14,872 bases of DNA, taken from positions 1 through 14,872 of the forward strand of contig MKRS01000196.1 of assembly GCA_001897035.1 (NCBI GenBank). The letters are read 5' to 3'. Numbering within the stretch: the stretch's first letter is position 1; every line of letters begins with the position of its first letter. A model generated the notes under the pieces. That model saw only the letters and a program-made list of their open reading frames with translations. It was not told the origin of the DNA and made no database searches. The position numbers and the translations under genes are program-made. Positions 1 to 14,872 of this stretch are shown piece by piece. The stretch comes from Bacteroidales bacterium 45-6 (GTDB lineage: Bacteria; Bacteroidota; Bacteroidia; Bacteroidales; Dysgonomonadaceae).

Positions 1-41
1 ACTTTTATTTATTTTATTATTTAATAACTTATATAACTCAC
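1..41 (-). other. 5' end of a second AT-rich intron, cut by the window edge
   Basis: On the minus strand the coding block ends in GAACAA and is followed at once by GTGAGT (41-36), a near-ideal eukaryotic 5' splice site. The sequence then becomes almost pure A/T to the window edge. If read through instead, the frame adds only VSYISY and hits a stop. A short C-terminal read-through is therefore the alternative, but the GTGAGT and the sudden drop in composition favour an intron. Confidence 0.55.
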
Positions 42-276
42 TTGTTCTTGTTCATTGAATTCATCAATGTCATTTTCTTCTTTTATTTCATTTGTTGATA
101 TATCAGGATTTAAATCAGCACATTTTGATAATATCATAAATAATTCAGGTACTAATAAATAATATAATAAATAAAAAACATATATAAATTAATATAAATA
201 AATTAAAAAATATATATATTATATTCATTTTACATTTTTCAGGATTAGGTATAACAAATCTCCATTCATCAATCAT
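42..276 (-). CDS. Fragment of a eukaryotic intron-containing gene, pICln (CLNS1A)-like
   Basis: Read on the minus strand, two coding blocks join across a GT-AG intron (233 down to 152). The upstream block ends in [11 protein letters not shown]. Splicing after the first base of the next codon restores a Leu codon, and the second block gives [17 protein letters not shown] followed by an acidic Asn/Glu/Asp-rich tail, 36 whole codons to position 42. There a GTGAGT donor (41-36) begins another intron in phase 0. The pattern RFVP, then a helix with LF...CA.LNPD, then an acidic stretch, is that of pICln, a subunit of the methylosome that handles Sm proteins during snRNP assembly; the human protein has a similar RFVP...CQALHPD segment. 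The eukaryotic gene structure is seen directly and is strong. The pICln name is recognition from memory and less sure. The fragment has no start or stop in the window. Its right edge merges with bacterial engB, so it does not belong to the bacterial chromosome. Confidence 0.62.
152..233 (-). other. Spliceosomal intron, extremely AT-rich (82 nt)
   Basis: On the minus strand it starts GTAAAATG and ends TTATTAG, and only 4 of 82 bases are G or C, two of them in the splice sites themselves. All three frames are broken by stops or become low-complexity here, while both flanks are open in the pICln-like frame. The junction is phase 1: the last base of the upstream exon (234) plus the first two bases of the downstream exon (151-150) form a Leu codon. 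No annotated bacterial feature explains this stretch. Confidence 0.72.
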
Positions 277-678
277 TTTATTATCAATGACGAATGGTAT
301 TTAGTGGATTTACCAGGGTATGGTTATGCCAGGCGCGGAAAAGAGGGTAGGGAGAAGATTGCCGGAATTATAGAAAGCTATATTCTGAAAAGGGAACAGA
401 TGACCAATCTTTTTTTGTTGATCGACTCCAGACACGAGCCTCAAAAAATAGACATGGAGTTTATGGTTTGGCTTGGTGAAAATGGCATACCTTTTTCTGT
501 TGTGTTCACCAAAATGGATAAATTGGGCAGGTCGGCTTTTGTGATGAAAACCAATAAGTATTTGGAAAAATTGAAGGAAGAATGGGAAGAATTGCCTCCA
601 GTGTTTTTTACTTCTTCCGAGAAAGGCGATGGAAAAGATGAGATTTTGGACTATATAGAGAAGCTTAATAAGTTATAA
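268..678 (+). CDS. engB: Ribosome biogenesis GTPase EngB/YsxC, 5'-truncated
   Basis: EngB (YihA/YsxC) is an essential TRAFAC-class GTPase that helps late assembly of the 50S ribosomal subunit. The frame is open from [10 protein letters not shown] (268 on) through the G3 motif DLPGYGYA, the G4 motif TKMDK and a G5-like SSEKGDG near the end; the natural stop is at 676-678. About 136 residues remain of the usual ~200. The P-loop (normally GRSNVGKSS) and the G2 threonine are missing because the sequence left of about 268 is foreign eukaryotic DNA. A GTG at 304 can be read as a start, but it lies inside the G3 motif (the Val of LVDLPG), so it is not the true start. The gene is probably whole in the real genome and is broken here by a chimeric junction. 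guaD follows 109 nt downstream on the same strand. Confidence 0.93.
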
Positions 679-787
679 ATATGCTTGATATTAAAACTAA
701 ATTTGTAATGCGATTGTTATAAATCAATAATAACCAAACTTTTTTCATTAAGTGCTATTTATTATATATATAGAAAACCGATATTAG

Positions 788-1261
788 ATGAGACAGAACG
801 TATCAAAATACATGTTAAAAGCAATACGCTTGTCAGAAAAAAGTGTTGTGAAAGGTGGCGGACCATTTGGAGCTATCATCGTGAAGGATGGAAAAATTGT
901 AGCTCAAGCACATAACAGTGTGACAATCATGAATGATCCTACAGCCCATGCAGAAATACTTGCCATCAGAAAAGCTTGTAAGAAATTGAGAACTTTCGAC
1001 CTAAGTGGTTGCGTGATATATACATCTTGCGAACCTTGCCCGATGTGTCTGTCAGCTATCTATTGGGCGCATATAGACAAGATTTGCTATGCGGCTTCCA
1101 ATCTGGATGCTTCTGCAATCGGGTTCGACGATTCTTTCATTTACAAGGAGTTTGAATTGGATCCTCAGTTGAGGAAAGTGAAATCAGAACAAATTCTCCG
1201 TGAATTGTCGCTTGATGCCTTTCGTATGTGGCGCGACAAAGACGACAAGGTTCTTTATTAA
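788..1261 (+). CDS. guaD: Guanine deaminase (cytidine-deaminase-fold, GuaD type)
   Basis: It hydrolyses guanine to xanthine and ammonia in purine salvage or catabolism, in the cytoplasm. The 157-residue protein has the length of the small zinc-dependent GuaD of Bacillus and aligns with it from memory over nearly the whole length. The zinc site is visible: His54 and catalytic Glu56 in TAHAE, and Cys84 and Cys87 in SCEPCPMC. The stretch AIYWA after the zinc site and GFDDSFIYKE (about residues 112-121) followed by a C-terminal AFRMWRD segment distinguish guanine deaminase from the related tRNA adenosine deaminase TadA. The ATG at 788 follows an AT-rich leader without a clear Shine-Dalgarno site, as is usual in Bacteroidota. 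A strong terminator (1285-1321) follows the stop. A broader nucleoside deaminase activity cannot be excluded. Confidence 0.9.
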   Translation: MRQNVSKYMLKAIRLSEKSVVKGGGPFGAIIVKDGKIVAQAHNSVTIMNDPTAHAEILAIRKACKKLRTFDLSGCVIYTSCEPCPMCLSAIYWAHIDKICYAASNLDASAIGFDDSFIYKEFELDPQLRKVKSEQILRELSLDAFRMWRDKDDKVLY

Positions 1262-1284
1262 CAAGGATATAAAGTTATTACATT

Positions 1285-1321
1285 GACCTCTTCAAAAGAT
1301 TACTTTTGGAGAGGTCTTTTT
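1285..1321 (+). terminator. Rho-independent terminator of guaD
   Basis: Arms 1285-1298 and 1303-1316 form a 14-bp stem with a single G-T pair (T1292 with G1309) around the 4-nt loop ATTA. A run of five T follows from 1317. It lies 24 nt after the guaD stop. Confidence 0.9.
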
Positions 1322-1407
1322 ATATTAAATTTTGACTACATAATGATGAAAAATATTAAATACTGAACGGTGGCTCGTATTAATTATATACTTTTACACA
1401 CACAAAT

Positions 1408-1440
1408 TTTGTTTATTGGCATAATACTTATTTATATTTA
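1408..1440 (+). promoter_or_regulatory. Possible Bacteroidota promoter for pafA
   Basis: TTTG at 1408-1411 is followed after 21 nt by TATATTTA (1433-1440), one base off the -7 consensus TAnnTTTG. The transcript would begin almost at the start codon (1447), so the message would be nearly leaderless. That makes this call tentative. Confidence 0.3.
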
Positions 1441-1446
1441 AAAGTG

Positions 1447-3099
1447 ATGAATATCAAGCGAGTAATTAATTTTTCTATTTTTTCATTCTGCCTTTTATTG
1501 TCCGCACCGGTAATTTCTCAAAACCAATTGGAGCGGCCGAAATTAGTTGTAGGAATTGTGGTTGACCAAATGCGTTGGGACTATTTGTATAGATTTTCGA
1601 ACAGATATGGCAATGATGGTTTCAAGCGTTTGCTCAACGAAGGTTTCTCGTGCGAAAACACCATGCTCAATTATGTTCCGTCTTTCACGGCTATAGGCCA
1701 TTCCTCCATTTATACTGGTTCGGTGCCTTCCATTCATGGAATAGCGGGGAATGAATTCATCGTTCAAGCCACTGGAAAGAGTGTGTATTGCACCGAAGAC
1801 ACTGCCGTGTATAGTGTGGGATATGGTGATAAAAAATACAAGAAGGGACAAATGTCACCCTTCAACCTGAAGGCAACTACCATCACCGATGAGTTGAAAC
1901 TGGCTACCAATTTTAAGTCGAAAGTGATAGGTGTTTCCATCAAGGACAGGGGAGCCATTCTTCCTGCCGGCCATGCTGCCGATGCCGCTTACTGGTTTGA
2001 CGGTACTTCCGGGTATTTCATCACCAGCAGTTGGTATATGAAGGAATTGCCAAAATGGGTAGTAGATTTCAACAACAAGAAACTTCCAGAGCAATATTTG
2101 AAAAAAGATTGGAACACGCTGTATCCTATTGACACTTACACCCAGAGCGTGAGTGACAACAACAACTACGAAGAATTGTATGAAAACAGCGACAACACCC
2201 AATTTCCAATCAAGACTTCCCAATTGATGAAGAAAAATGGATATGGGCTTATCGCTGCCACTCCTTATGGCAATTCGCTGACTTTGGACATGGCCAAGGA
2301 AGTTATTGCAAACGAACAAATGGGAGAACATCAGAACACCGATTTTTTGGCTGTCAGCATTTCTTCACCCGACTACATTGGGCATCAGTTTACTGTCAAT
2401 TCGGTGAAGATGGAAGACAATTATCTTCGTTTGGACAAAGATCTGGCAGACTTTTTTGCTTACTTGGATGGCAAGATTGGCAAAGGAAATTACGTACTGT
2501 ACCTTACAGCCGACCACGGGGCGAGCCACAATGCGCAATTTTTGTTGGACAACAAGATTCCTGCTGGAAATTGGGACGAAGGAGCTGTACGCAAGGAGTT
2601 GAACCAATACCTTCATCAAACATTTGGTGTGGACGATTTGGTGTTGAGCTTGTCCAACTACCAGGTGAATTTCAATTATAAGAAAATCACCAAGGACATC
2701 GACAAACAAAAATTGATAGAAAACTGCATAGATTTTTTCAAGAAACAATCGAATGTGGCGTATGTGGTAGAAACGGCCAAAGCGGCTGAAGCGGCGATTC
2801 CTTCGGTGGTGAAAGAAAAAATTATCAATGGATACAATCGCGAATTGTGTGGCGAGATACAAATCATATTGAAACCAGCGTGGTATAGCGACAGCAACCT
2901 CAAAGGAGGAACCCACGGTGTCTGGAATCCTTATGACGCACACATCCCGTTAGTTTGGATGGGATGGGGGATCAAGCACGGAAAATCCAACCAGGAAGTC
3001 TATATGACCGATATTGCTCCCACCGTTGCAGCCTTGTTGCATATTCAAATGCCTGACGGATGTATAGGCAAGCCTATCCTGCCTGTGTTGGGGCAGTGA
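1447..3099 (+). CDS. pafA: Periplasmic alkaline phosphatase, PafA type
   Basis: This alkaline phosphatase superfamily enzyme hydrolyses phosphate monoesters in the periplasm. Residues 1-25 form a signal peptide: a short basic start, a hydrophobic core, then PVIS before QN. Every active-site residue known from Elizabethkingia PafA has a counterpart: zinc ligands Asp40, Asp309, His313, Asp356, His357 and His490; the Thr81 nucleophile in PSFTAIGH; Asn102 in AGNEF; and Lys166 and Arg168 in SIKDRG. The Asn and Lys-x-Arg set marks a phosphate monoesterase rather than a diesterase or sulfatase relative. At 550 residues it has the family's usual size. The ATG at 1447 is preferred; a GTG one codon earlier (1444) is also in frame. 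A terminator at 3129-3168 separates it from the symporter gene, so it is probably monocistronic. PafA is known in Bacteroidetes to work even when phosphate is plentiful; whether that holds here is inference. Confidence 0.93.
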   Translation: MNIKRVINFSIFSFCLLLSAPVISQNQLERPKLVVGIVVDQMRWDYLYRFSNRYGNDGFKRLLNEGFSCENTMLNYVPSFTAIGHSSIYTGSVPSIHGIAGNEFIVQATGKSVYCTEDTAVYSVGYGDKKYKKGQMSPFNLKATTITDELKLATNFKSKVIGVSIKDRGAILPAGHAADAAYWFDGTSGYFITSSWYMKELPKWVVDFNNKKLPEQYLKKDWNTLYPIDTYTQSVSDNNNYEELYENSDNTQFPIKTSQLMKKNGYGLIAATPYGNSLTLDMAKEVIANEQMGEHQNTDFLAVSISSPDYIGHQFTVNSVKMEDNYLRLDKDLADFFAYLDGKIGKGNYVLYLTADHGASHNAQFLLDNKIPAGNWDEGAVRKELNQYLHQTFGVDDLVLSLSNYQVNFNYKKITKDIDKQKLIENCIDFFKKQSNVAYVVETAKAAEAAIPSVVKEKIINGYNRELCGEIQIILKPAWYSDSNLKGGTHGVWNPYDAHIPLVWMGWGIKHGKSNQEVYMTDIAPTVAALLHIQMPDGCIGKPILPVLGQ

Positions 3100-3128
3100 A
3101 ATAATGGATGAAGTAATTCTAAAATATT

Positions 3129-3168
3129 AAACCTGCAAGCCGGTAAGTTTGCAGGTTTTCTTTTTTTT
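3129..3168 (+). terminator. Rho-independent terminator of pafA
   Basis: A perfect 10-bp stem, AAACCTGCAA (3129-3138) with TTGCAGGTTT (3149-3158), encloses a 10-nt loop. The T-rich tract CTTTTTTTT follows. It lies 29 nt after the pafA stop. Confidence 0.88.
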
Positions 3169-3182
3169 CTGTATTTCATTCG

Positions 3183-3214
3183 TTTGCAGGTGGAATGAAG
3201 ATTTTATAGATTTG
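3183..3214 (+). promoter_or_regulatory. Consensus Bacteroidota promoter for the symporter gene
   Basis: TTTG (3183-3186), a 20-nt spacer and TAGATTTG (3207-3214) match the Bacteroidota sigma-ABfr consensus TTTG-N19-21-TAnnTTTG at every fixed base. It sits just after the pafA terminator. The -7 box ends 24 nt before the ATG at 3239, which leaves a short leader. Confidence 0.8.
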
Positions 3215-3238
3215 TGGCTGAATTGATAAATTTTTGTC

Positions 3239-4693
3239 ATGACAGGAACACTAATCCTCATTATAATCCTCTGCTATTTTAGCGTATTATTGATTATTTC
3301 CCATTTAATCAGCCGGAAGAACTCGGACAACGACGCATTTTTTCTCGGAAACCGCAAGTCGCCTTGGTTTGTGGTGGCGATAGGAATGATAGGAACCAGC
3401 ATTTCGGGAGTCACTTTTATTTCCGTGCCTGGAATGATCCGCCACATCGACATGACCTACATGCAGATGGTGTTTGGCTTTTTCGTGGGGTATCTTGTCA
3501 TTGCCTACGTGCTTCTTCCCATCTACTACAAGTTGCAATTGACCACCATATACGAATATCTGGGGCGTCGCCTCGGTTTTTATTCCTACAAGACGGGAGC
3601 GTCTTTTTTCCTTTTGTCGAGAGTCATCGGCTCCGCGGCCCGCTTGTATTTGGTGGCGATGATTTTGCAGACACTTGTTTTTGCCCGGTGGAATATTCCT
3701 TTTCCAGTGACGGTGATGGCTATCATGCTGTTGATATGGGCATACACATTCCGTAGTGGCGTCAAAACCATCATTTGGACCGATTTGCTACAAACCTTGT
3801 GTTTCCTTTCGGCTATCGTTTTGATTATCTGGCAAGTTTCATCAAAGATGGGGCATGGATTTGGAGGTGCTGTGGATTTTGTGACCAGCAGCGAGCATTT
3901 TCGCATCTTTGTTTTCGACGACTGGGGAAGCAAACAACATTTTGTGAAGCAATTCCTGAGTGGAATATTTATCACGATTGTGATGAGTGGATTAGATCAG
4001 GACATCATGCAAAAAAACCTGACTTGCAAAAGCCTCAAGGAAGCCCGAAAGAACATGTTGTCTTACGGATTTGCTTTCATCCCCATTAATTTTGTCCTGC
4101 TTTGCCTCGGGATTTTACTCTTGGAATTTGCTGCAAAATACCAGATAGCTTTGCCTGATGTTTCGGACAAGATTTTACCCATTTTGGCGACGGAATATTT
4201 GGGATTCCCGGTGCTGGTCTTTTTCACTATCGGCATCATAGCTGCCGCCTTTGCCAGTGCGGATTCTGCTTTGGCTTCGCTTACTACTTCGGTTTGCGTG
4301 GATTTGCTTGATATTAAAAAGCAAGATGAAGCCAGGGCAAAAAAGGTGCGTATGAATGTGCATTTTGGTGTCAACATGCTATTTGTCGGCGTCATTCTGG
4401 CCATCAATTACATCGGTTCGGACAGCATCATCGATGCCATTTACAAGATCGCATCCTACACCTACGGCCCTTTGTTGGGGATGTTTGCTTTCGGCTTGTT
4501 TACAAAATGGCAGGTGCGCGATCGATTTACGCCTTATGTGGCGGTTCTATCGCCCGTTTTATGCTATGGTTTGGAACTTCTGCTCTTGCATTTGTTACAG
4601 TACAAAGTAGGCTATGAGATCTTGTTGCTGAACGGATTGCTGACCTTTGTGGGATTGTGGGTGTTGAGAAAAGGGAAGATGGTGGAGATTTAA
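3239..4693 (+). CDS. Sodium:solute symporter family (SSS) transporter
   Basis: This inner-membrane transporter couples import of a small organic solute to the sodium gradient. The 484-residue protein is almost wholly membrane segments, about 13 by eye, as expected for the SSS (LeuT-fold) family. Family landmarks are an N-terminal helix, then AFFLGNRKSPWF (33-44), the unwound first core helix GMIGTSISGVTF (49-60), TTIYEYLGRRLG (102-113), the intracellular loop GLDQDIMQKNLTC (251-263), and the sodium-site helix with ASADSALASLTTS (339-351). The substrate (sugar, amino acid, carboxylate or other) cannot be read from the sequence, and no catabolic gene next door names it. A consensus promoter lies directly upstream. 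The SDR gene begins 12 nt after its stop, so the two are likely co-transcribed. Confidence 0.9.
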   Translation: MTGTLILIIILCYFSVLLIISHLISRKNSDNDAFFLGNRKSPWFVVAIGMIGTSISGVTFISVPGMIRHIDMTYMQMVFGFFVGYLVIAYVLLPIYYKLQLTTIYEYLGRRLGFYSYKTGASFFLLSRVIGSAARLYLVAMILQTLVFARWNIPFPVTVMAIMLLIWAYTFRSGVKTIIWTDLLQTLCFLSAIVLIIWQVSSKMGHGFGGAVDFVTSSEHFRIFVFDDWGSKQHFVKQFLSGIFITIVMSGLDQDIMQKNLTCKSLKEARKNMLSYGFAFIPINFVLLCLGILLLEFAAKYQIALPDVSDKILPILATEYLGFPVLVFFTIGIIAAAFASADSALASLTTSVCVDLLDIKKQDEARAKKVRMNVHFGVNMLFVGVILAINYIGSDSIIDAIYKIASYTYGPLLGMFAFGLFTKWQVRDRFTPYVAVLSPVLCYGLELLLLHLLQYKVGYEILLLNGLLTFVGLWVLRKGKMVEI

Positions 4694-4705
4694 AGTTTTT
4701 TTGAT

Positions 4706-5476
4706 ATGAAAATAGAAGGAAAACATATTGTTATCACGGGAGCATCCTCGGGAATCGGGAAAAGCTTGGTGGAATTGTTGTCGGCTTGTGAAGGTGTGAA
4801 AATTGTGGGCGCTGCTCGGCGCAGCGAACTCATTCCCACGAAAGAAGGCATTGTTTTCCCCGTTTCTGCCGATGTGAGTACCCAGGATGGGGTGGACGAG
4901 CTATTTTCGTTTGCTTTGGAAAGATTGGGGCATATCGACATTTTCATTGCCAATGCCGGTTTCGCTTATGCCGAAAAGTTGGAAAAGCCAGATTGGAAGC
5001 ATATTTCCGACATTTTCAACCTGAATGTGTTTTCGCCTATCTATTCCTTGGAAAAGTTTGCACGGCTCGCAAGCTCACGCCAAACACAGTTTGTGACGCT
5101 TATTTCGGCTGTGGCCTATTTTCCCTTGCCGGCTTATGCGCTTTATTGCTCCACTAAAAGTGCCTTGAGGCAATTTTTTGAAGCTTATTGCTACGAAAAA
5201 GAGAATAATCTGACCATTTCCAACGTTTATCCAGTAGCAACACGCACCGAGTTTTTCAAAAATGCGGCATCAGGGAGCGTTTCCTTGCCGTCATTGAGCC
5301 AGGATGCAGATACGGTTGCCAAACGAATAATGAAAGGCATAGAGCGCAACAGAAGGGATATTTATCCGTCACTTATATTTCGTGTTTTTTTACCTATTGC
5401 GCGTGCTTTTCCGTTTTTGATCCGTATCTATTCATTGAACGAAAGGAGGAAAATGAGTTTTCTTCTTGATCCATAA
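4706..5476 (+). CDS. Short-chain dehydrogenase/reductase (SDR)
   Basis: A classical SDR oxidoreductase of 256 residues using NAD(P)(H). The cofactor-binding TGASSGIG lies at residues 11-18, and ANAG at 82-85 stabilises the central sheet. The catalytic set is complete: Asn107, Ser134, Tyr147 and Lys151 (YCSTK). Arg38-Arg39 after the second strand suggests a preference for NADP(H); this is an inference. The C-terminal tail (about 227-250) is unusually hydrophobic, with IFRVFLPIARAFPFLI flanked by basic residues. This could hold the enzyme at the membrane, as in SDRs that act on lipids or fatty acyl compounds. The substrate is not evident. The gene starts 12 nt after the symporter stop and shares its likely operon. 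The flippase gene follows after 115 nt. Confidence 0.88.
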   Translation: MKIEGKHIVITGASSGIGKSLVELLSACEGVKIVGAARRSELIPTKEGIVFPVSADVSTQDGVDELFSFALERLGHIDIFIANAGFAYAEKLEKPDWKHISDIFNLNVFSPIYSLEKFARLASSRQTQFVTLISAVAYFPLPAYALYCSTKSALRQFFEAYCYEKENNLTISNVYPVATRTEFFKNAASGSVSLPSLSQDADTVAKRIMKGIERNRRDIYPSLIFRVFLPIARAFPFLIRIYSLNERRKMSFLLDP

Positions 5477-5591
5477 ATAAAGAAATCAATTCTTTGGAAA
5501 CTAAATATTTCTGATTTTTATTAGTAATTTCGGACATAATATGTCGTATATTGATCTGATAAAGAAATACGAACCTGAATAATAGGCCACT

Positions 5592-7121
5592 ATGAACGAA
5601 AGCCTGCCTGATGCCGGCGAAAAGCAACAAACAAACGAAGTCTCCTATAAGTACATTCTGAAATTTACCGGAATATTCAGCAGTGTGCAAGGACTCAACT
5701 TATTCGTATCTATTGTCCGCAACAAACTTGCTGCAGTTATTCTGGGGCCTGCTGGTATGGCTCTGGTGGCCATATACAACAGCATTACTACTTTTATCGC
5801 CGACTTGTCCAACTTGGGAATCAAATTTAGTTGGGTGCGGAATCTTTCCGAACTTTATTCCGAAAACGACAAGGAAAAAATTTCAGAATACATCAAACTG
5901 ATCCGGACATGGAGTCTTTGGATCGCTATAGGGGGGGCGCTGCTTTGCGCATTTCTGTCGCCTCTCATCAGCTTGTATTCGTTTGGAGGAGATTGGTCTC
6001 ATGCAGGAGATATCTGTTTGTTGTCTCCGATGATAATTTTTCTCGCAATCACAAGCGGTGAAATTTCCATCTTGAAAGGAATGAGAATTTTAAAACGTGT
6101 TGCCGCTATTTCCGGATTGTCGGCGGTGGTGGCCCTGATAAGCACAATTCCCTTTTTTTATTTCCTGGGATACGATGGCATTATTCCAGCACTTAATGTC
6201 AGCACATTCCTTGTGCTTTGCATCCATTTATTTTATTCTGTATCCCTTTATCCCTGGAAGGTAAGCTTGTTTTCCAAAGCTTGTTTCCAAAGAGGGAAAA
6301 ACATGGTAAAATTGGGAATCCCGTACACTTTGGCATCGCTTGCTGGTTCAATTGTCACGCTTTCTATTCCGGCTTACCTGCTTTCCCGCGGCAGCTTGGA
6401 AGATGTGGGCTACTTCAAGGCTGGATACGGCCTGATTGTCACCTATGCAGGAATGATTTTCGTTGCAATGGAAGCCGATTATTTCCCGCGACTTTCATCC
6501 ATACAGCATGATATACAGAAAATGAACCGTGTGATAAATCAGCAAGTTGAAGTATGCCTTCTCCTTATTTCGCCGTCTCTTGTCGGGTTCATGCTCTTGA
6601 TGCCTGTATTTGTGCCGTTGTTGTATTCCGGAGTATTTCTTCCGGTGGTTGACATGGCGCTGTGTGCAGGATTTTACCTTTTCTTCAGGGCATTGTTGCT
6701 GCCGGTTTCATATATTCCGCTTGCGAAGGGAGATTCCATCACGTATCTGATTACAGAAATTTTTTACGACGTAATTGTCTTGCTATTGATAATCGTTTTA
6801 TTTTCATGGTTTGGACTTGAAGGAACAGGTATTGCCTTGTCGCTTTCTATCATACTGGAAATCATTTTTGTGACCTTGGTATATTCTCGCAAATACGGTT
6901 TCAGATATGACGTTGAGATATTGAAAATGGGAATATTTCAATTAATCATCCTCATTGCCACATTCTGCATTTGTTACTGGGGGACTTTTTTGTTGAAAAT
7001 CATTGTTGGAGGTTTGCTGCTGATTATTTCATCTGCTTTGTCTATCAACAGATTGCAAAAGAAAACTGCCCTGTTCTCAGGAATAGTGAATAAAATCAGT
7101 AAAACCATTAAGCACAAATGA
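5592..7121 (+). CDS. wzx: Oligosaccharide flippase, WzxE/O-antigen translocase-like
   Basis: An inner-membrane lipid-linked oligosaccharide flippase of the MOP superfamily. Such proteins turn an undecaprenyl-diphosphate-linked glycan from the cytoplasmic to the periplasmic face. The 509-residue protein has a short polar N-terminus (1-20) followed by about 12-14 hydrophobic helices. The segment LAAVILGPAGMALVA (about 47-61) is the typical first-helix-pair signature of Wzx proteins close to E. coli WzxE, and a basic loop with ILKGMRILKR follows the fourth helix. The glycosyltransferase gene starts inside its stop codon (ATGA), which points to translational coupling and a shared pathway. No polymerase, sugar-nucleotide or chain-length genes are nearby, so the substrate must be assembled from genes elsewhere. 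A role in capsule, O-antigen or glycoprotein oligosaccharide export is inference. Confidence 0.85.
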   Translation: MNESLPDAGEKQQTNEVSYKYILKFTGIFSSVQGLNLFVSIVRNKLAAVILGPAGMALVAIYNSITTFIADLSNLGIKFSWVRNLSELYSENDKEKISEYIKLIRTWSLWIAIGGALLCAFLSPLISLYSFGGDWSHAGDICLLSPMIIFLAITSGEISILKGMRILKRVAAISGLSAVVALISTIPFFYFLGYDGIIPALNVSTFLVLCIHLFYSVSLYPWKVSLFSKACFQRGKNMVKLGIPYTLASLAGSIVTLSIPAYLLSRGSLEDVGYFKAGYGLIVTYAGMIFVAMEADYFPRLSSIQHDIQKMNRVINQQVEVCLLLISPSLVGFMLLMPVFVPLLYSGVFLPVVDMALCAGFYLFFRALLLPVSYIPLAKGDSITYLITEIFYDVIVLLLIIVLFSWFGLEGTGIALSLSIILEIIFVTLVYSRKYGFRYDVEILKMGIFQLIILIATFCICYWGTFLLKIIVGGLLLIISSALSINRLQKKTALFSGIVNKISKTIKHK

Positions 7122-8140
7122 CAAAAATATCAGTTCTTATAGCAGTATATAATACAGAAAAATATTTACCGGAATGCTTTAATTCTTTGATCGCACAAAC
7201 GGAAAAAAATATTCAGATAATTTGTGTGGATGATGCTTCAACCGACAATTCACTGAAGGTGATAAACGAATTTGCATTGATTGATAAGCGAATTCAGGTC
7301 ATTCAATTCAGCGAGAACCAGGGTCAGGCTAAAGCCCGCAACGAAGCGTTGAAGATAGCGGACGGCAAATTTATCGCTATGCTCGACAGTGACGATTGGT
7401 TGAGCAACGATGCATTTGAGAAAGCATTGCAAGTATTCGAAAATTATCCGCAAACTGATTCCGTTTTATTTGATCTGAAATATTATTATGAAAATAATGG
7501 GCAGACCGAGTCATTTCCCCTGAAAACCGAAAAACAGGTGCTAAGCGGGCCGGAAGCTTTTGAATTAAGTTTGGATTGGAAAATACACGGACTGTATTTG
7601 ATAAGGGAACATATACACAAACAATATCCGTTCGATGCTACCAAAAAGCTGTATAGCGATGACAACACAACCAGAATTCACTACCTGCATTCGCGGGAAG
7701 TGCGGTTTTGTGAAGGGATTTATTTTTACCGGCAGCACAGCCAATCGATGACTAAGTCTATAAATTTCAGGAGGTTTGATTTGATGGAGGCAAATCTCAA
7801 CCTGCTGAACCAACTCACGAAAGAATCTATTTCGAACAACATAGTTGCTACCTTTCAAGGTCAAAGGTGGTTCAAATTCATCGATACATATTGGTTTTAC
7901 TTTTTGCACCACAAAAAATTCTCCTGCGCGGAACAAGAGGAAGCACTGGATCGGATGAAATTCATTCTAAGCACGTTCAGCAAAGAGGGAATTCCCATCG
8001 GAAGCCGAACAAAATTTGGCTATTGGTATGTAAAATCGTTTGCGTTATTCCGGTTGCAGGCTGAAAGTTATTTCAGAATCAGAGGTATTGTTAAGAAGTT
8101 GGGTCTAAAACGGACAATTTGTTCTTACCTTTGTCTGTGA
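7118..8140 (+). CDS. Family 2 glycosyltransferase
   Basis: An inverting GT-A glycosyltransferase that moves a sugar from a nucleotide donor, probably onto a lipid-linked oligosaccharide at the cytoplasmic membrane face. The GT2 fold is clear in residues 1-100: ISVLIAVYNTEKYLPEC at the start, CVDDASTDNS (36-45) binding the nucleotide, NQGQAKARNEAL (67-78), and the metal-binding DSDDW (90-94). A second conserved region lies near SDDNTTRIHYLH and GIYFYRQHSQSMT (about 185-215). No membrane helix is obvious. The length of 340 residues is normal. It overlaps the flippase stop by 4 nt (ATGA), so the two are coupled. Donor and acceptor cannot be told. A likely uup promoter lies inside its last codons. 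Confidence 0.87.
   Translation: MTKISVLIAVYNTEKYLPECFNSLIAQTEKNIQIICVDDASTDNSLKVINEFALIDKRIQVIQFSENQGQAKARNEALKIADGKFIAMLDSDDWLSNDAFEKALQVFENYPQTDSVLFDLKYYYENNGQTESFPLKTEKQVLSGPEAFELSLDWKIHGLYLIREHIHKQYPFDATKKLYSDDNTTRIHYLHSREVRFCEGIYFYRQHSQSMTKSINFRRFDLMEANLNLLNQLTKESISNNIVATFQGQRWFKFIDTYWFYFLHHKKFSCAEQEEALDRMKFILSTFSKEGIPIGSRTKFGYWYVKSFALFRLQAESYFRIRGIVKKLGLKRTICSYLCL
8126..8133 (+). promoter_or_regulatory. Likely -7 box of the uup promoter
   Basis: TACCTTTG matches the Bacteroidota -7 consensus TAnnTTTG exactly. It lies within the last codons of the glycosyltransferase gene, 38 nt before the uup ATG. The -33 element is weak: a TTGG about 23 nt upstream is the best candidate. Confidence 0.5.
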
Positions 8141-8171
8141 ATTGAATCAATAAAAGCGACAGTAAAAAAAA

Positions 8172-10046
8172 ATGACTCCATGTTTGCAAGTGGAAGGGCT
8201 AACCAAAAGTTTTGGCGACCTCCTCCTGTTCAAAGATATTTCTTTCGGCATCGCCGAAGGACAACGCATTGGGCTGATTGCCAAAAACGGCTCGGGAAAA
8301 ACCACCCTTTTGAATATTCTTTCCGGTAAAGAACAATATGATGGCGGAACAATCACTTTCCGGCGCGATTTGAGGGTAGCTTACCTCGAACAAGATCCCA
8401 ATTTTCCCGAAGATTTGACTGTTTTGGAGGCTTGTTTTCACCAGGGTAACGAGATCACGGAACTGATTGCCCGCTACGAAGAACTGATTGCCAAAGGCGA
8501 AACCCGTGGCTTAGACGAGGTGCTGCACCAGATGGATTCGCTGAAAGCCTGGGACTATGAGCAACGGGTGAAACAGATCCTTTCGCAACTCAAGATTTAC
8601 GATTTCGAACAAAAGATCGGGACACTTTCCGGCGGGCAACTCAAGCGGGTGGCATTGGCCAATGTGCTGATAACGGAACCCGACCTGATTATCCTCGACG
8701 AGCCTACCAACCACCTCGACCTCGACATGACCGAATGGCTCGAAGGCCATTTGAGCCGCTCCAAATTGAGCTTGCTGATGGTGACGCACGACCGCTATTT
8801 TCTGGATCGGGTTTGCTCCGAAATCATTGAAATAGACCAGCAGCAGATTTTCCAATACAAAGGAAGTTATTCGTATTTCCTCGAAAAAAGGGAGCAGCGG
8901 ATCAGCTCGCAAGGTGCGGAAATAGACCGGGCCAATAACCTCCTTCGCAAAGAACTGGAATGGATGCGCCGCCAACCGCAGGCGCGCGCCACAAAGGCCA
9001 AATCGCGCATCGATGCTTTCTACGATTTGGAGAAAAAGGCCAAACAAACAGCCCAACAAGGTGAAGTGCGCCTCGAAATGAAAGGTTCGTACATCGGCAA
9101 CAAGATTTTTGAGATGAATCACGTCAGCAAACGTTTTGGTGACAAAAAGATATTGGAAGATTTCAGCTACACCTTTGCCCGCTACGAAAAGATGGGCATT
9201 GTGGGTAACAACGGCACGGGAAAATCCACTTTCGTCAAGATGTTGATGAGCGAAGTGGCGCCCGACAGCGGCGAAATAGAAATCGGCGAAACGGTGAAGT
9301 TCGGCTATTACAGCCAGGACGGATTGGAATTCAACGACCAGATGAAGGTGCTCGATGTGGTGCAGGATGTTGCCGAAGTGATCGATTTGGGAAGCAGCCG
9401 CCTCACAGCGTCGCAGTTTCTCCAGCATTTCCTGTTTGCTCCCGAGAAACAGCATAGCTTCGTTTACAAGCTTTCAGGTGGGGAACGCCGCCGCTTGTAT
9501 CTGTGTACGGTGCTGATGCGCAACCCAAATTTCCTTGTTCTGGACGAGCCGACCAACGACCTCGACATCATGACCTTGAACATTCTGGAGGAATATCTCC
9601 AAAGTTTCAAGGGATGCGTGATCGTGGTGTCGCACGACCGCTATTTCATGGACAAGGTAGTGGATCATTTGCTGGCTTTCCGGGGTGATGCAGACATCAA
9701 GGATTTCCCTGGAAATTATACGCAATACCGGGCTTGGAAAGAAGAACTGGATCGTGAACAAAGACGGAAAGAGCAAGCCGCCAAAGCGCCCGAACCCAAA
9801 GCGGCACAAGCCGTAGAAAAGCCGATCGAAAAGCGCAAACTTTCGTTCAAGGAAAAGCGGGAATTCGAGACCTTGGATGCCGAGATTCCTCAATTGGAAG
9901 AACGGAAAGCGCGATTGGAATCGGAAATGTCCACCGGCCAATTGTCCACTGACGAATTGCTCGCCAAATCGGCCGAAATCAGTCGGCTTATAGATGAGAT
10001 TGACGAAAAGACCCTGCGCTGGATGGAGCTGAGTGAATGGATGTGA
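8172..10046 (+). CDS. uup: ABC-F family ATPase Uup
   Basis: A soluble ABC-F protein with two ATPase domains and no membrane part. Uup acts on ribosomes and binds branched DNA; its loss raises transposon excision in E. coli. Domain 1 shows Walker A NGSGKT (39-44), signature LSGGQ (152-156), Walker B ILDEPTNHLD (174-183) and H-loop His206. The linker (about 240-300) carries ELEWMRRQPQARATKAKSRI, the form typical of Uup rather than EttA or resistance ABC-F proteins. Domain 2 shows NNGTGKS (346-352), LSGGE (434-438), VLDEPTNDLD (456-465) and His488. Residues about 525-624 are charged and coiled-coil, matching the Uup C-terminal DNA-binding domain. All catalytic residues are present. At 624 residues it is full-length. 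It probably has its own promoter (-7 box at 8126) and converges on otsAB with 8 nt between the stops. Confidence 0.93.
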   Translation: MTPCLQVEGLTKSFGDLLLFKDISFGIAEGQRIGLIAKNGSGKTTLLNILSGKEQYDGGTITFRRDLRVAYLEQDPNFPEDLTVLEACFHQGNEITELIARYEELIAKGETRGLDEVLHQMDSLKAWDYEQRVKQILSQLKIYDFEQKIGTLSGGQLKRVALANVLITEPDLIILDEPTNHLDLDMTEWLEGHLSRSKLSLLMVTHDRYFLDRVCSEIIEIDQQQIFQYKGSYSYFLEKREQRISSQGAEIDRANNLLRKELEWMRRQPQARATKAKSRIDAFYDLEKKAKQTAQQGEVRLEMKGSYIGNKIFEMNHVSKRFGDKKILEDFSYTFARYEKMGIVGNNGTGKSTFVKMLMSEVAPDSGEIEIGETVKFGYYSQDGLEFNDQMKVLDVVQDVAEVIDLGSSRLTASQFLQHFLFAPEKQHSFVYKLSGGERRRLYLCTVLMRNPNFLVLDEPTNDLDIMTLNILEEYLQSFKGCVIVVSHDRYFMDKVVDHLLAFRGDADIKDFPGNYTQYRAWKEELDREQRRKEQAAKAPEPKAAQAVEKPIEKRKLSFKEKREFETLDAEIPQLEERKARLESEMSTGQLSTDELLAKSAEISRLIDEIDEKTLRWMELSEWM

Positions 10047-10054
10047 CCGCGAAA

Positions 10055-12220
10055 TTAATTGATAAGCCTTTCTAAAAAAACGATCGTTTGCCCTTGTGTG
10101 GGAATATTGTATTTTGCCACATTGGAGCTTTTTCCCACTTTGATGGTGATGGCATGGTCGGGCAAAGCGATAAAGGTTTCTTCGTCGGTGGTGTCGTCGC
10201 CGATTGCCATGATGAAGTCGTAATTGTCCTGATTCATCAACCGGATAGCTTCTGATCCTTTGCTCACATCGTTGTTTTTCACTTCCACGATTTTGTTTCC
10301 TTTCATGATTTGAAGATTAAGTCGCGAGCAGGGATTAATCAACGCATTAATCAATTGAGTGACACGCAATTCAGCCAACCAGGAATCCACGTTTCGATAA
10401 TGCCATACCAATGCTGTGTCTTTGATTTCTATTTTCGACATAGGTGTGCGCCGGACGGTGTGCTCAAAAATATTCAGTATTTCTTTGTCCCACGGCACAT
10501 CCTCGATTCGTTTTCTCCATTCTCCATTTTCCTTGTAGAAAGCTCCGTGTTCAGCCGCCAAGCCGATGGGAAGCTTTCCGAGCCATTTGTCCAAGGTTTG
10601 TCTGTCCCTACCGCTGCTGATGACCACCCTATTGCGAGGATCTTTGCACAAATTTGCGAGCAAGGCCAGCAATGGTGGAGTGGGGGAGGCCTCCGATGGT
10701 TTTCTGCGGAACGGAACCAACGTCCCGTCATAATCGAGAATAACCAGCCTGTTTTTTGATTGGTCGTATTTTTCTTTTATCAGCTTGAAATTTTCCTGTT
10801 TGAGGATTTTGTTGTTCAATGCAACGTTTTTTTCCCTTACTTCCAGCAATTCTTCCAAAAAGTCCTGTGCCCATTGGTTCACGTTTTGTACGGAAATGAT
10901 CTGCTGCATCGATTTTATTTTCTCTTTCTGCTCATCTTCGGGCATCTCAAGAGCCTGTATCATGGCCTCCACCATCTCTTTTTGGTCAGTTGGATTCACG
11001 ATGATTGCATCCGATAGCTCAATAGCGGCACCTGCCATTTCACTCAATATGAGCACACCGGGGCTTTCATTTTTTGTGGCAACATATTCTTTTGCCACCA
11101 GGTTCATCCCGTCACGCAATGGGGTGACCAGAGCAATATCAGAGTTGTGATACAATGCTGTTAATTCTTCAAATTGAAATGAACGATAGAAATAATACAC
11201 AGGGTTCCAGTCGATGGTTGAATATTTTCCGTTTATGCGTCCAACGAGTGTGTCGATTTCCGTTTTCAATTTAGCATAAATGTCCACATTGTCTCTGGAT
11301 GGAGCCACAATCATCACTAAGGACACAGCACCTCTGTATTGTGGATAGTTATCCAAAAGGGTTTCGAAGCTTTTCAACCGCAGAGGAATTCCCTTACTGT
11401 AATCAAGCCTATCTACCGACAGCATAAGTTTGCTGTTACCTAAACTTTTACGAAATTCCTCGGCTTGTTGTCGAATGGCATCGTTTTCCATTGCTTTCTG
11501 AAACATTTGGAAATTAATTCCCATCGGAAATGCATCCACATCCACAACGCGTTCGTCCAAATGTATTTCATCGAGTGTGCACTCCATTTTCAGAACCCTG
11601 TAAACGGCACTTATAAAATGCCGCATGTAGCTATGTGTGTGGAAACCCACCAAATCTGCTCCCAGCAGGCCGTCGAGCAACTGAGCCCGCTGCGGAAGTG
11701 TGCGGAACAGCTCGTAAGATGGAAAAGGAATGTGATGGAAATAGCCGATACTGGTGTCGGGAGCCTTGTTCCGTATCATTTTTGGAAGCAGCATCAGTTG
11801 GTAATCTTGCACCCAGACGATGTCGCCGGGCTCGATGATTTTGAGTGTGGCTTCGCAGAACAGCCTGTTGACCTCCTCGTAAGCCTCCCAATACTTGGTT
11901 TCATAACGGATATAGCTTGGAAAGTAGTGTGAAAGCGGCCACAACACGCTGTTGCAATATCCTTCGTAGTAATTTTCTATCTGCTCGGGGGAGAGGTACA
12001 CCGGACTGTATTTTTGGGTCAGCAATTGGTCATCGATGGCTGTTTTTTCTTTGCTTTCTTTCAAAAACATGCCGGGCCATCCTACCCAGTATCTCTCCAC
12101 ATTCATTTCCAGAGAATCCATGCCAGTGGATAATCCGCCGGGAGATGGAATTACTTTATAAATGTTATTTTCCTCAACAATTTTTAGAGGAAGTCTGTTT
12201 GAAACAATGATCAGCTTCAT
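10055..12220 (-). CDS. otsAB: Bifunctional trehalose-6-phosphate synthase/phosphatase (OtsA-OtsB fusion)
   Basis: It makes trehalose in two steps: GT20 synthase joins UDP-glucose and glucose-6-phosphate, then a HAD phosphatase removes the phosphate. The synthase spans residues 1 to about 465: Arg9 in VSNRLP, the PSPGGL loop (25-30), Tyr85 and Trp94, Asp139, His163 in HHIPFP, Arg271 and Lys276 in DRLDYSKG, Arg309, and LRDGMNLVAKE (368-378). The phosphatase spans about 490-721: nucleophile Asp496 and Asp498 in LDYDGTL, SSGR (535-538), Lys654, and GDDTTDE (674-680). Both active sites look intact. One variation is QDYQL (138-142) where many OtsA enzymes have HDYHL. The fusion exists in several bacterial lineages and in eukaryotes. 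Trehalose is an osmolyte and desiccation protectant. The divergent neighbours encode a GH15 glycosidase and an MscS channel, which fits osmotic adjustment. The start at 12220 gives a complete N-terminal strand. Confidence 0.94.
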   Translation of the reverse strand: MKLIIVSNRLPLKIVEENNIYKVIPSPGGLSTGMDSLEMNVERYWVGWPGMFLKESKEKTAIDDQLLTQKYSPVYLSPEQIENYYEGYCNSVLWPLSHYFPSYIRYETKYWEAYEEVNRLFCEATLKIIEPGDIVWVQDYQLMLLPKMIRNKAPDTSIGYFHHIPFPSYELFRTLPQRAQLLDGLLGADLVGFHTHSYMRHFISAVYRVLKMECTLDEIHLDERVVDVDAFPMGINFQMFQKAMENDAIRQQAEEFRKSLGNSKLMLSVDRLDYSKGIPLRLKSFETLLDNYPQYRGAVSLVMIVAPSRDNVDIYAKLKTEIDTLVGRINGKYSTIDWNPVYYFYRSFQFEELTALYHNSDIALVTPLRDGMNLVAKEYVATKNESPGVLILSEMAGAAIELSDAIIVNPTDQKEMVEAMIQALEMPEDEQKEKIKSMQQIISVQNVNQWAQDFLEELLEVREKNVALNNKILKQENFKLIKEKYDQSKNRLVILDYDGTLVPFRRKPSEASPTPPLLALLANLCKDPRNRVVISSGRDRQTLDKWLGKLPIGLAAEHGAFYKENGEWRKRIEDVPWDKEILNIFEHTVRRTPMSKIEIKDTALVWHYRNVDSWLAELRVTQLINALINPCSRLNLQIMKGNKIVEVKNNDVSKGSEAIRLMNQDNYDFIMAIGDDTTDEETFIALPDHAITIKVGKSSNVAKYNIPTQGQTIVFLERLIN

Positions 12221-12258
12221 AAATTGGTCATATTTGAAGGTTTGTAACTTTTGGTTTC

Positions 12259-12281
12259 CCTTCAGGAGGTCTCCCTGAAAG
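12259..12281 (-). promoter_or_regulatory. Hairpin in the putative otsAB leader
   Basis: As minus-strand RNA the arms 12281-12274 and 12266-12259 pair over 8 bp with one G-U pair around a 7-nt loop. Read as plus-strand RNA, the same position becomes a C-A mismatch, so the fold favours the otsAB transcript. It ends 38 nt before the otsAB start codon and no T-run follows, so it is not a simple terminator. Confidence 0.4.
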
Positions 12282-12282
12282 C

Positions 12283-12297
12283 ACCTAACGGGTAGGT
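12283..12297 (-). promoter_or_regulatory. Second small hairpin next to the first
   Basis: ACCTA (12283-12287) and TAGGT (12293-12297) form a 5-bp stem with a 5-nt loop, directly beside the larger hairpin. Together with GCG..CGC complementarity at 12301-12310 it makes the middle of the otsAB/GH15 spacer unusually structured and GC-rich compared with its AT-rich edges. I do not recognise a known riboswitch class. Confidence 0.3.
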
Positions 12298-12391
12298 AGG
12301 CGAAGCACGCAATTTCAACGGTATTCTATAGAGACAACAATGCAAGTGTTAATATAGTTCTGTTAAAAAAACTAATCTACTTGTTGTCAAA

Positions 12392-12399
12392 CAAATATA
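12392..12399 (-). promoter_or_regulatory. Candidate -7 box for otsAB transcription
   Basis: On the minus strand this reads TATATTTG, an exact match to TAnnTTTG. The expected -33 TTTG is not present, since that position overlaps the start of the GH15 gene. If used, it gives otsAB a leader of about 165 nt that contains both hairpins. Confidence 0.35.
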
Positions 12400-12410
12400 A
12401 ATAATATAGC

Positions 12411-14204
12411 ATGAAAAATTTGGATTACGGAGTAATCGGAAATTGCAAGACGGCAGCTTTGGTATCGGCTAAAGGCAGCATCGATTGGCTGTGCCTTCCC
12501 TCCTTTGATGCCCCTGCTGTGTTTTCGAAGATTTTGGACAAAAAGGCCGGCGGAAGCTTTGCCATCGAAGCGGGCGAGGGCTACACCGTCACGCAAAAGT
12601 ATTTGAAAGGGACAAACATCCTCTGCACCCTGTTTGTGTCGGAAGAGGGAAGTTTCGAATTGCTCGACTTCATGCCTCGCTATCGTACCATGGAAACAGG
12701 CTACTACATGCCCGCCGAGGTGTATCGCTACATACGTCCGTTGGGAGGAAGTCCCCGATTCAGGATTAAGTACGATCCCAAAATGAATTATGCGCAGGAA
12801 TCGCCCATACACCGCAAATTTCCCGATTTCATTAAGACCTCTTCCTGCAACAACCGGAAAGACAACATGTATCTGTATTCGAGCTTCGACTTCGACACCA
12901 TACTCGAAGGCAAGGAGATGGTGCTCGAAAGGGAAGAATTCTTGCTGCTGTCCTACCACCAGAAGCTGATACGCATCGACAGCGAGCGCGTGCATCTCGA
13001 ATACCAGCGCACCAAGATTTATTGGCTCAACTGGAACAACCGATCCCGGAAATTCAAGCAATACAGCCCGCTTATATCTAGGAGCTTACTCATCTTGAAG
13101 CTGATGTCGTACCAAGAAAGCGGGGCCGTGATAGCGGCTCTCACCACGAGCATCCCCGAGACCATCGGGGAAGTTCGCAATTGGGATTACCGCTTTTGCT
13201 GGATAAGGGATGCTTCGATGTCCATCGAGACCCTTATCAAAATGGGACACCAATCGGCGGCCCAACGTTTCATGGGGTTCATCAAGCGGATTCTCCGTTC
13301 CAAGTCGGATTCGTTCCAGATTATGTATGGGATAGATGGAAGCAAGATTTTGAAAGAAGAGATTCTGCCCCACTTGGCGGGATTTGAAAATTCGCAACCG
13401 GTAAGAATTGGCAACGCGGCCTACAGTCAGCGGCAGAATGACTCCTTGGGCTACTTGATGGATGTCATCTACAACTATTACATCCATTTTCCCGGCACAT
13501 TGGACGAGATAGAGGAGATGTGGGCCATCGTGAAGAATATTGTGAAGAGCGTATATGCTGATTGGCGCACCAAAGACCAAAGCATTTGGGAATTCCGCAA
13601 CGTGGAGAGACATTTTGTGTTTTCGAAAGTGATGTCGTGGGTGGCATTGGACAGGGCGATCAAGATAGCAGAGTTTCTCGGGAAGAATGATTATGCCGCT
13701 AAATGGCAAGTGGAAGCTGCTGTGATAAAAGACGATATTTTCACCAACGGCTGGAACGAGAAACTGCAAAGCTTCACGCAAGCTTACGACAATGAGGACA
13801 TGGATTCTTCCTTGCTGCTTATGGAGCAATACGACTTTATTCGGGCTACTGACGAAAAATATATAACCACCGTGAAGCGCATCAAGCAAGAATTGTTTCA
13901 CAAAGGATTGATGTACCGCTACAAGAACAACGACGACTTCGGACTGCCTTCGTCTTCGTTCACCATCTGCACCTTCTGGTTGGTGAGGGCCTTGTTTGTT
14001 ATTGGAGAAAAGGACGAAGCTTTGCAAATATTCAACCAGTTGCTCACTTATTCCAACCACCTTGGCCTGTTCAGCGAAGATCTGGACTTCGAAACAAAGG
14101 AGCAACTCGGCAATTTCCCGCAGGCTTATTCCCATTTGGCCTTGATAAGCACGGCAGAGCTGTTCACCGAAGAAATTGTCACCTCCAAGTTCATAAAACC
14201 TTAA
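12411..14204 (+). CDS. Glycoside hydrolase family 15 protein (glucoamylase/trehalase-like)
   Basis: An inverting exo-glucosidase fold: an N-terminal beta-sandwich (1 to about 220), then an (alpha/alpha)6 barrel. Family marks are YGVIGNCKTAALVSAKGSIDW near the start (split here as DYGVIG 5-10 and SIDWLCLP 23-30), RNWDYRFCWIRDA (256-268), the general acid Glu394 in SIWEFR followed by a SKVMSWVALDRA segment, and the general base Glu556 in LGLFSEDLD. Both catalytic glutamates are present and the 597-residue length is normal. There is no signal peptide, so it acts in the cytoplasm. GH15 enzymes from bacteria include glucoamylases and, in actinobacteria and archaea, trehalases. Lying divergent to otsAB, it may degrade trehalose or a storage glucan; this is inference from position. 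mscS follows 44 nt downstream. Confidence 0.92.
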   Translation: MKNLDYGVIGNCKTAALVSAKGSIDWLCLPSFDAPAVFSKILDKKAGGSFAIEAGEGYTVTQKYLKGTNILCTLFVSEEGSFELLDFMPRYRTMETGYYMPAEVYRYIRPLGGSPRFRIKYDPKMNYAQESPIHRKFPDFIKTSSCNNRKDNMYLYSSFDFDTILEGKEMVLEREEFLLLSYHQKLIRIDSERVHLEYQRTKIYWLNWNNRSRKFKQYSPLISRSLLILKLMSYQESGAVIAALTTSIPETIGEVRNWDYRFCWIRDASMSIETLIKMGHQSAAQRFMGFIKRILRSKSDSFQIMYGIDGSKILKEEILPHLAGFENSQPVRIGNAAYSQRQNDSLGYLMDVIYNYYIHFPGTLDEIEEMWAIVKNIVKSVYADWRTKDQSIWEFRNVERHFVFSKVMSWVALDRAIKIAEFLGKNDYAAKWQVEAAVIKDDIFTNGWNEKLQSFTQAYDNEDMDSSLLLMEQYDFIRATDEKYITTVKRIKQELFHKGLMYRYKNNDDFGLPSSSFTICTFWLVRALFVIGEKDEALQIFNQLLTYSNHLGLFSEDLDFETKEQLGNFPQAYSHLALISTAELFTEEIVTSKFIKP

Positions 14205-14225
14205 ATAATCACCGCATAAAATCCA

Positions 14226-14233
14226 TATATTTG
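14226..14233 (+). promoter_or_regulatory. Possible -7 box upstream of mscS
   Basis: TATATTTG matches TAnnTTTG exactly and ends 15 nt before the mscS ATG. No TTTG lies at the proper -33 distance, so mscS may instead be read through from the GH15 gene. Confidence 0.35.
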
Positions 14234-14248
14234 TAAAAAGAAAAGATC

Positions 14249-14872
14249 ATGAATTTAGTACAAGTCAAATCATTTTCCAGCATGGAGAAAATCCTATCTA
14301 CCTTGACAGATGAGGGCACCAGTTTAGGATTATCGCTATTGAAAGCCTTGGTCATATTTTTTATTGGCCGTTATATTATCAAGTTAGTCAACAAGATTGT
14401 AAGAAAACTACTTAGCAAACAGAACATTGCCCCTGCTGTGCGAACTTTTGTTGGCAGCTTGATAAATATTGTCTTGATTGTGATGTTGATTGTATCCGTG
14501 ATAGGAGCTTTAGGTATCCAGACAACCTCTTTTGCCGCATTGATAGCTTCTGCTGGTGTGGCTATTGGCATGGCTTTGAGCGGAAATTTGTCCAACTTTG
14601 CAGGAGGATTGATCATCTTGCTATTCAAGCCGTTCAAGATTGGCGATTACATTTCCTCTTCTACTTTGGGCGGAACAGTGGTCGAAATCCAGATCTTCCA
14701 CACGATTCTGAATACCCCCGACAATGTCAGGGTGCATATTCCAAACGGGCTTTTGAGTAGTGGCTATATCAATAATTATTCCGTAGAAAAAAGACGGATC
14801 GAGTGGACGTTTGGGGTTGATTATGGAGCGGATTTCGAGAAAGTAAAGGAAACGATTCTTGATGTTTTGGCT
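14249..14872 (+). CDS. mscS: Small-conductance mechanosensitive channel MscS, 3' end beyond window
   Basis: An inner-membrane channel that opens under membrane tension after hypo-osmotic shock and releases small solutes. The 208 codons present start at the ATG at 14249 and run open to the window edge. Three hydrophobic segments fit MscS: TM1 about 25-45, TM2 about 66-88, and the pore helix TM3 about 93-126, which has the small-residue pattern FAALIASAGVAIGMALSG followed by NLSNFAGG. Then come FKPFKIGDYI (126-135), the beta domain with PNGLLSSGYINNYS (165-178), and the beginning of the C-terminal alpha/beta domain. Family members are around 280 residues, so about a quarter is missing. It is 44 nt after the GH15 gene on the same strand. 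Beside trehalose synthesis it fits an osmotic stress group. Confidence 0.93.
   Translation, partial: MNLVQVKSFSSMEKILSTLTDEGTSLGLSLLKALVIFFIGRYIIKLVNKIVRKLLSKQNIAPAVRTFVGSLINIVLIVMLIVSVIGALGIQTTSFAALIASAGVAIGMALSGNLSNFAGGLIILLFKPFKIGDYISSSTLGGTVVEIQIFHTILNTPDNVRVHIPNGLLSSGYINNYSVEKRRIEWTFGVDYGADFEKVKETILDVLA

Follow-up and report, generated by a model that had tools for sequence, protein, structure and literature searches.

An apparently eukaryotic, pICln-like gene fragment fused to a truncated engB at a Bacteroidales contig end, a probable assembly or library chimera

Features of the contig and the truncated engB gene

The window, by which we mean the whole stretch of DNA that was analysed (14,872 bases), is one complete contig (C196) from a bin of 3,818,148 bases in 899 contigs (G000, 85.34% complete). 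A fusion of a eukaryotic gene fragment to a bacterial chromosome had been proposed for bases 1-290 in an earlier note made from the sequence; the join is present in the sequence and the observation is confirmed with corrected limits, the foreign piece comprising contig bases 1-267. The features at and near the join are as follows.

1..41, minus strand: probable first part of a further spliceosomal intron, with the 5′ splice site GTGAGT at 41-36 and the rest lost beyond the contig end (12% G+C, judged from sequence only)
42..151, minus strand: predicted exon, with 16 residues at its start and EFNEQEQ at its end, C-terminal part of a pICln/Lot5-like protein (PF03517 at 16.4 bits alone, below 22.1)
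152..233, minus strand: predicted spliceosomal intron of 82 nt, GTAAAA...TTATTAG, 4.9% G+C, the removal of which joins the exons in frame
234..273, minus strand: predicted exon of the same pICln-like protein, an isoleucine followed by 12 residues (PF03517 matched from profile positions 82-84, which is base 267 or 261 leftwards)
268..273, no strand: zone of the join, ATCAAT, read as I-N of EngB on the plus strand and as I-D of the pICln-like protein on the minus strand (EngB identity from 268; eukaryotic limit from a weak protein match)
268..678, plus strand: 3′ part of engB (yihA/ysxC), residues 62-197 and the stop codon (tblastn of P0001 against the window)
788..1261, plus strand: deaminase-like gene, the right-hand neighbour of engB also in a same-genus genome (locus L003 there; best NCBIfam match TadA, 79 bits, below the cut-off of 150)

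Right of the join, the contig encodes residues 62-197 of the ribosome-biogenesis GTPase EngB (YihA/YsxC; TIGR03598), while residues 1-61, within which we presumptively place the P-loop from the GTPase motif in P0001, are missing and replaced by foreign DNA. P0001 is a public protein of 197 amino acids with an intact N-terminus, which matched TIGR03598 at 223.9 bits (cut-off 124.45) and was identical at 135 of the 135 residues queried (window 271-675), so that the earlier description of engB as running on without error right of the join holds. Two contigs carry this protein, under the source labels 'lgn' and 'ena' (taken to be Logan and ENA), and it was compared at the protein level; the strain that carries it may differ from that of the window. 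Because P0001 is intact and identical over all queried residues, an unbroken engB exists elsewhere. Among the 120 matches listed of 7,999, the only other one above 81% identity was P0002, the window's own protein. P0002 is an open reading frame of 124 residues (window 304-678) that begins at an internal GTG of engB and hides the truncation of the gene.

The distribution of EngB was then considered together with the possibility that eukaryotic DNA has truly integrated into the bacterial chromosome and disrupted engB in some or all of the population. EngB was detected without internal stops in 40 of the 41 genomes searched, including that of the window, with the sole miss in a genome of 61% completeness (G035); its open frames span 200-241 amino acids in the 39 other genomes versus 158 in the window's genome. 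EngB is commonly regarded as essential or close to it. Such an integration is what the deposited contig shows, and a short overlap such as that at 268-273 would also suit end joining; against it stand the near-universal presence of EngB, its presumed essentiality, the existence of the intact copy, and the finding that the foreign piece is seen only where the contig ends, the sequence never switching back to bacterial DNA. We therefore regard an insertion into the bacterium as exceedingly improbable.

Comparison with a same-genus genome (G001) was used to place the start of the bacterial DNA. Searching an 18.4-kb stretch of this genome by blastn returned one alignment, which covered window 268-5455 at 78.6% identity and started exactly at 268; the bacterial DNA thus begins at this base. 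The gene order in G001 is a NadA-like gene, a small gene, engB and a deaminase-like gene (the first two named by reading their translations), and that of the window is engB, the deaminase-like gene and a PafA alkaline phosphatase. The earlier note had asked for the intact 5′ end of engB in close relatives, and it was found: engB is whole in the same-genus genome, as is the N-terminus of P0001. A second join further right was suspected from the end of the match at 5455 and was rejected, as window 8172-14871 matches the same G001 contig at 83%. The intervening segment (about 5456-8171), which is without a match in G001, probably reflects an ordinary difference in gene content; it holds flippase- and glycosyltransferase-like genes, as read from the sequence, and is perhaps a variable glycan locus. 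Elsewhere in the window, bases 10055-14204 hold a minus-strand gene for a bifunctional trehalose-phosphate synthase/phosphatase and, divergent from it, a trehalase/glucoamylase-like gene whose matches stay below their cut-offs, and bases 14510-14620 have a second copy of 111 bases at 72% identity in another contig of the bin (C344), which is perhaps a paralogous mechanosensitive channel gene.

The native left flank of engB was sought in the bin. EngB residues 1-60 had no match in G000, from which contigs shorter than 3 kb were perhaps outside the search, and were found in all four control genomes; likewise, the nadA-like gene of G001 had no match in G000 under the same limit and was present in both controls (G001 and G002). 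For the small gene between the nadA-like gene and engB, only a weak relative (36%) was detected in G000. The search with EngB residues 1-60 also returned weaker matches in the controls, probably paralogous GTPases, and none of these in G000. The bin was only partly readable: 67 stretches were fetched, and the checked contigs of at least 3,009 bases were readable while those of at most 2,914 bases, like the other checked stretches from contigs below 3,000 bases, read as N (7 further stretches agreed). The absence from G000 is consequently weak evidence, since (i) contigs shorter than 3,000 bases may be unsearchable; and (ii) the paralogous GTPases that would be expected were silent there as well. 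The results are consistent with a bacterial contig that ends inside engB and a native left side that lies outside the bin.

The AT-rich piece left of the join

On the minus strand, the foreign piece was found to read as two exons separated by an 82-base GT...AG interval (233-152). The coding sequence of the second exon consists of a leucine, whose codon is split by this interval, and 36 further residues. Removal of the interval restores a colinear frame, raising the score against PF03517 (Voldacs) from 16.4 to 21.7 bits and extending the profile span from 97-130 to 84-130. The second exon ends in CAA followed directly by GTGAGT, a good 5′ splice site, and without an intron at this point the frame reads VSYISY and a stop; given the quality of this site, the contig end probably falls within a second intron. 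With the VSYISY tail the joined exons scored 22.7 bits, and without it 21.6-21.7 bits, relative to a curated cut-off of 22.1 (E-values of 1.2e-4 to 2.5e-4). The earlier note had named spliceosomal introns and an opposite-strand coding frame as marks of the left side. The frame is supported by the borderline family match, which lies just above the cut-off, or just below it if coding ends at the second splice site; of the introns, one is complete and the other (splice site at 41-36) is only probable.

Further searches gave a similar picture. Searching the whole bin for the family located PF03517 at 42-155 with 15.4 bits, which is under the cut-off, and three of 14 control genomes also matched, none of them over the cut-off. 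When the first exon was read on into the intron, no Pfam match was obtained. The only match to a PDB sequence by phmmer was pICln (8g1u_C), starting from the isoleucine, and was weak (E-value 2.5). PF03517 is the pICln/Lot5 family. In eukaryotes, pICln acts in the assembly of the spliceosomal Sm core. A published paper on Sm-core assembly names pICln 118 times. The piece covers the C-terminal profile positions 84-131 of the family, only 51-57 residues being present, and resembles a fragment of an AT-rich eukaryote's nuclear gene, one encoding the C-terminal region of a pICln/Lot5-type protein.

The composition of the piece is also distinct, as had been claimed for the DNA left of about base 270. 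Bases 1-267 have 16.9% G+C, in comparison with 23.6% in the most AT-rich 250 bases elsewhere in the window and 30-51.6% (mean 44%) in the first 250 bases of 25 readable contig starts of the bin. This sample was of starts only, with 60 fetched, 35 dropped because they read as N, and 25 counted; none of the 25 resembled bases 1-267, so that frequent chimerism is not indicated for the readable part of the bin. Under an order-2 Markov model the left part did not stand out as foreign (z = +2.1, towards likely rather than unlikely sequence); this score was set aside, and therefore only G+C and content discriminate left from right.

Sequence relatives of the piece were sought at several levels. Protein searches found none for the eukaryotic piece, and phage and plasmid records had no match to bases 1-300 at an E-value of 1e-5. 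Seven of 40 relatives of the bacterium matched bases 1-267, over 27-75 bases only (E-values of 1.3e-5 to 5.6e-4), and these matches may be chance ones for AT-rich sequence. These data bear on the alternative that bases 1-267 are an AT-rich bacterial or phage stretch with a fortuitous pICln reading, the join being some other chimera or a rearrangement. The match to Pfam is a borderline one, the exon without splicing reaches just 15.4 bits, and sub-threshold matches occur in the control genomes mentioned above, all of which would agree with this alternative; yet the two pieces around the GT...AG interval are colinear on one profile, the G+C is lower than that of any 250-base stretch read in the bin, and the phage and plasmid records are silent. 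Thus, we consider a bacterial or phage origin of the piece extremely unlikely, and even if it were true the sequence would still part from engB at 268.

As to which eukaryote might have supplied the piece, six anaerobic gut fungal genomes range from 16.07 to 21.80% in G+C (PMC6414434). This genome-wide range makes Neocallimastigomycota, for which the protein searches found no sequence match, a candidate source at 16.9% G+C. Other AT-rich eukaryotes, such as ciliates and amoebae, fit equally well. A fungal or protist source raises a further alternative, namely that the bacterial DNA was recently integrated in the genome of an AT-rich eukaryote, beside or inside its pICln-like gene. Transfer in this direction has a setting in a study on horizontal transfer into early diverging fungi, in which Neocallimastigomycota is mentioned 21 times (PMC11291939). 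Nevertheless, the bacterial part consists of 14.6 kb of long open bacterial genes, it matches one same-genus genome at 78.6% (268-5455) and 83% (8172-14871), and the contig was binned with 3.8 Mb of bacterial DNA. The encoded EngB is, moreover, identical to the copy on other contigs, and the pICln-like gene would be cut through. On these grounds a passage of bacterial DNA into a eukaryote has a very low probability.

Position and width of the join

Two sequence sources meet at one point of the contig: the same-genus alignment begins at 268, and the DNA to its left differs in G+C and in Pfam content. The 12 residues read around the join in P0001 and in the contig differ in that bases 259-267 specify S-P-F in place of T-Q-L, which demonstrates that 262-267 are not EngB. 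The codon that precedes I-N-x-F was examined in 109 loci from two sets of relatives (29 and 80, some of which may be from the same species) and was found to specify leucine in 106, threonine in two and histidine in one; the TTC of the contig was seen at none of them. From the other side, the match to the Pfam profile carries the eukaryotic reading leftwards from base 267 or 261, and the weak pICln similarity (E-value 2.5) carries it from 273, which puts the upstream limit of the exon at 234..273 in or just right of the join.

These limits place the meeting point of the two sources at about 268 and suggest a shared stretch of approximately six bases (268-273), a width that depends on weak homology. 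An overlap of six bases would be uncommon at a random join, with an estimate of roughly 0.2% under a simple model. The earlier note had described a shared zone at 262-279 and had taken it for a microhomology of the kind left by assembly or amplification chimeras. Bases 268-273 can be read on both sides at the protein level, and the microhomology is plausible but no more than suggestive; it is weaker than had been stated, and the left limit was drawn too wide, EngB identity starting at 268 and not at 262.

Origin of the join and its consequences

Overall, we assign a probability of roughly 95% to the reading that this contig end is an assembly or library chimera, in which a fragment of a pICln-like gene of an AT-rich eukaryote was joined at about 268 to the interior of a Bacteroidales engB. 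This reading is based on (i) a foreign piece, about as long as a read or an insert, that sits at the contig end; and (ii) a join placed inside a near-universal gene, of which an intact copy, identical at the protein level, is present on other contigs. The chimera interpretation offered in the earlier note is supported on the same grounds, with the 267-base piece at the very end of the contig, the intact EngB counterpart on public contigs, and engB whole in the same-genus genome. Neither host DNA on both sides of the foreign piece nor a sharing of the piece by relatives was found, as it lies at the contig end, beyond which its far flank would fall, and its matches in the 40 relatives extend over at most 75 bases. 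A join of eukaryote and bacterium at this point is almost certainly not real in any organism. Taking both directions together, a real integration is very improbable, and the same low probability applies to a live junction, carried by a minority of the population, at which eukaryotic nuclear DNA and the chromosome of a Bacteroidales bacterium meet within a single cell lineage, whichever way the transfer went.

The events that may have produced the chimera can be outlined as follows. Coverage or graph continuity would have been lost within engB, where the bacterial contig came to its end; a short shared sequence at about 268-273, or a somewhat longer one, would then have allowed a few reads or one k-mer path to lead the contig into eukaryotic DNA; and extension would have halted once it had run for 267 bases and reached the probable second intron, which is very AT-rich. 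We infer this sequence of events, including the role of the microhomology and the reason why the bacterial contig ended where it did, from the arrangement of the contig.

Two published systems are comparable. In passages of the GUNC paper (PMC8201837), misassembly and mis-binning are named as the principal sources of error expected in metagenome-assembled genomes, with misassembly the rarer of the two. The misassembled contigs described there are likewise pieces of different sources wrongly joined in one contig; the present case differs from them in that the second source seems to be a eukaryote and contributes less than one whole gene. As no whole gene is present, gene-based chimera checks would probably miss it. 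The MicroSEC paper (PMC8674242) describes chimeric reads that arise at microhomologies through end repair during library preparation, two single strands being joined at a short shared sequence; this work was on fixed tumour samples, and its mechanism is no more than a candidate for the present join.

On this contig EngB is read as a fragment from an internal start, and it should be marked as partial. More generally, the locus is a caution and not a discovery: eukaryotic scraps smaller than a gene at contig ends should not be taken for gene transfer or for the loss of an essential gene.
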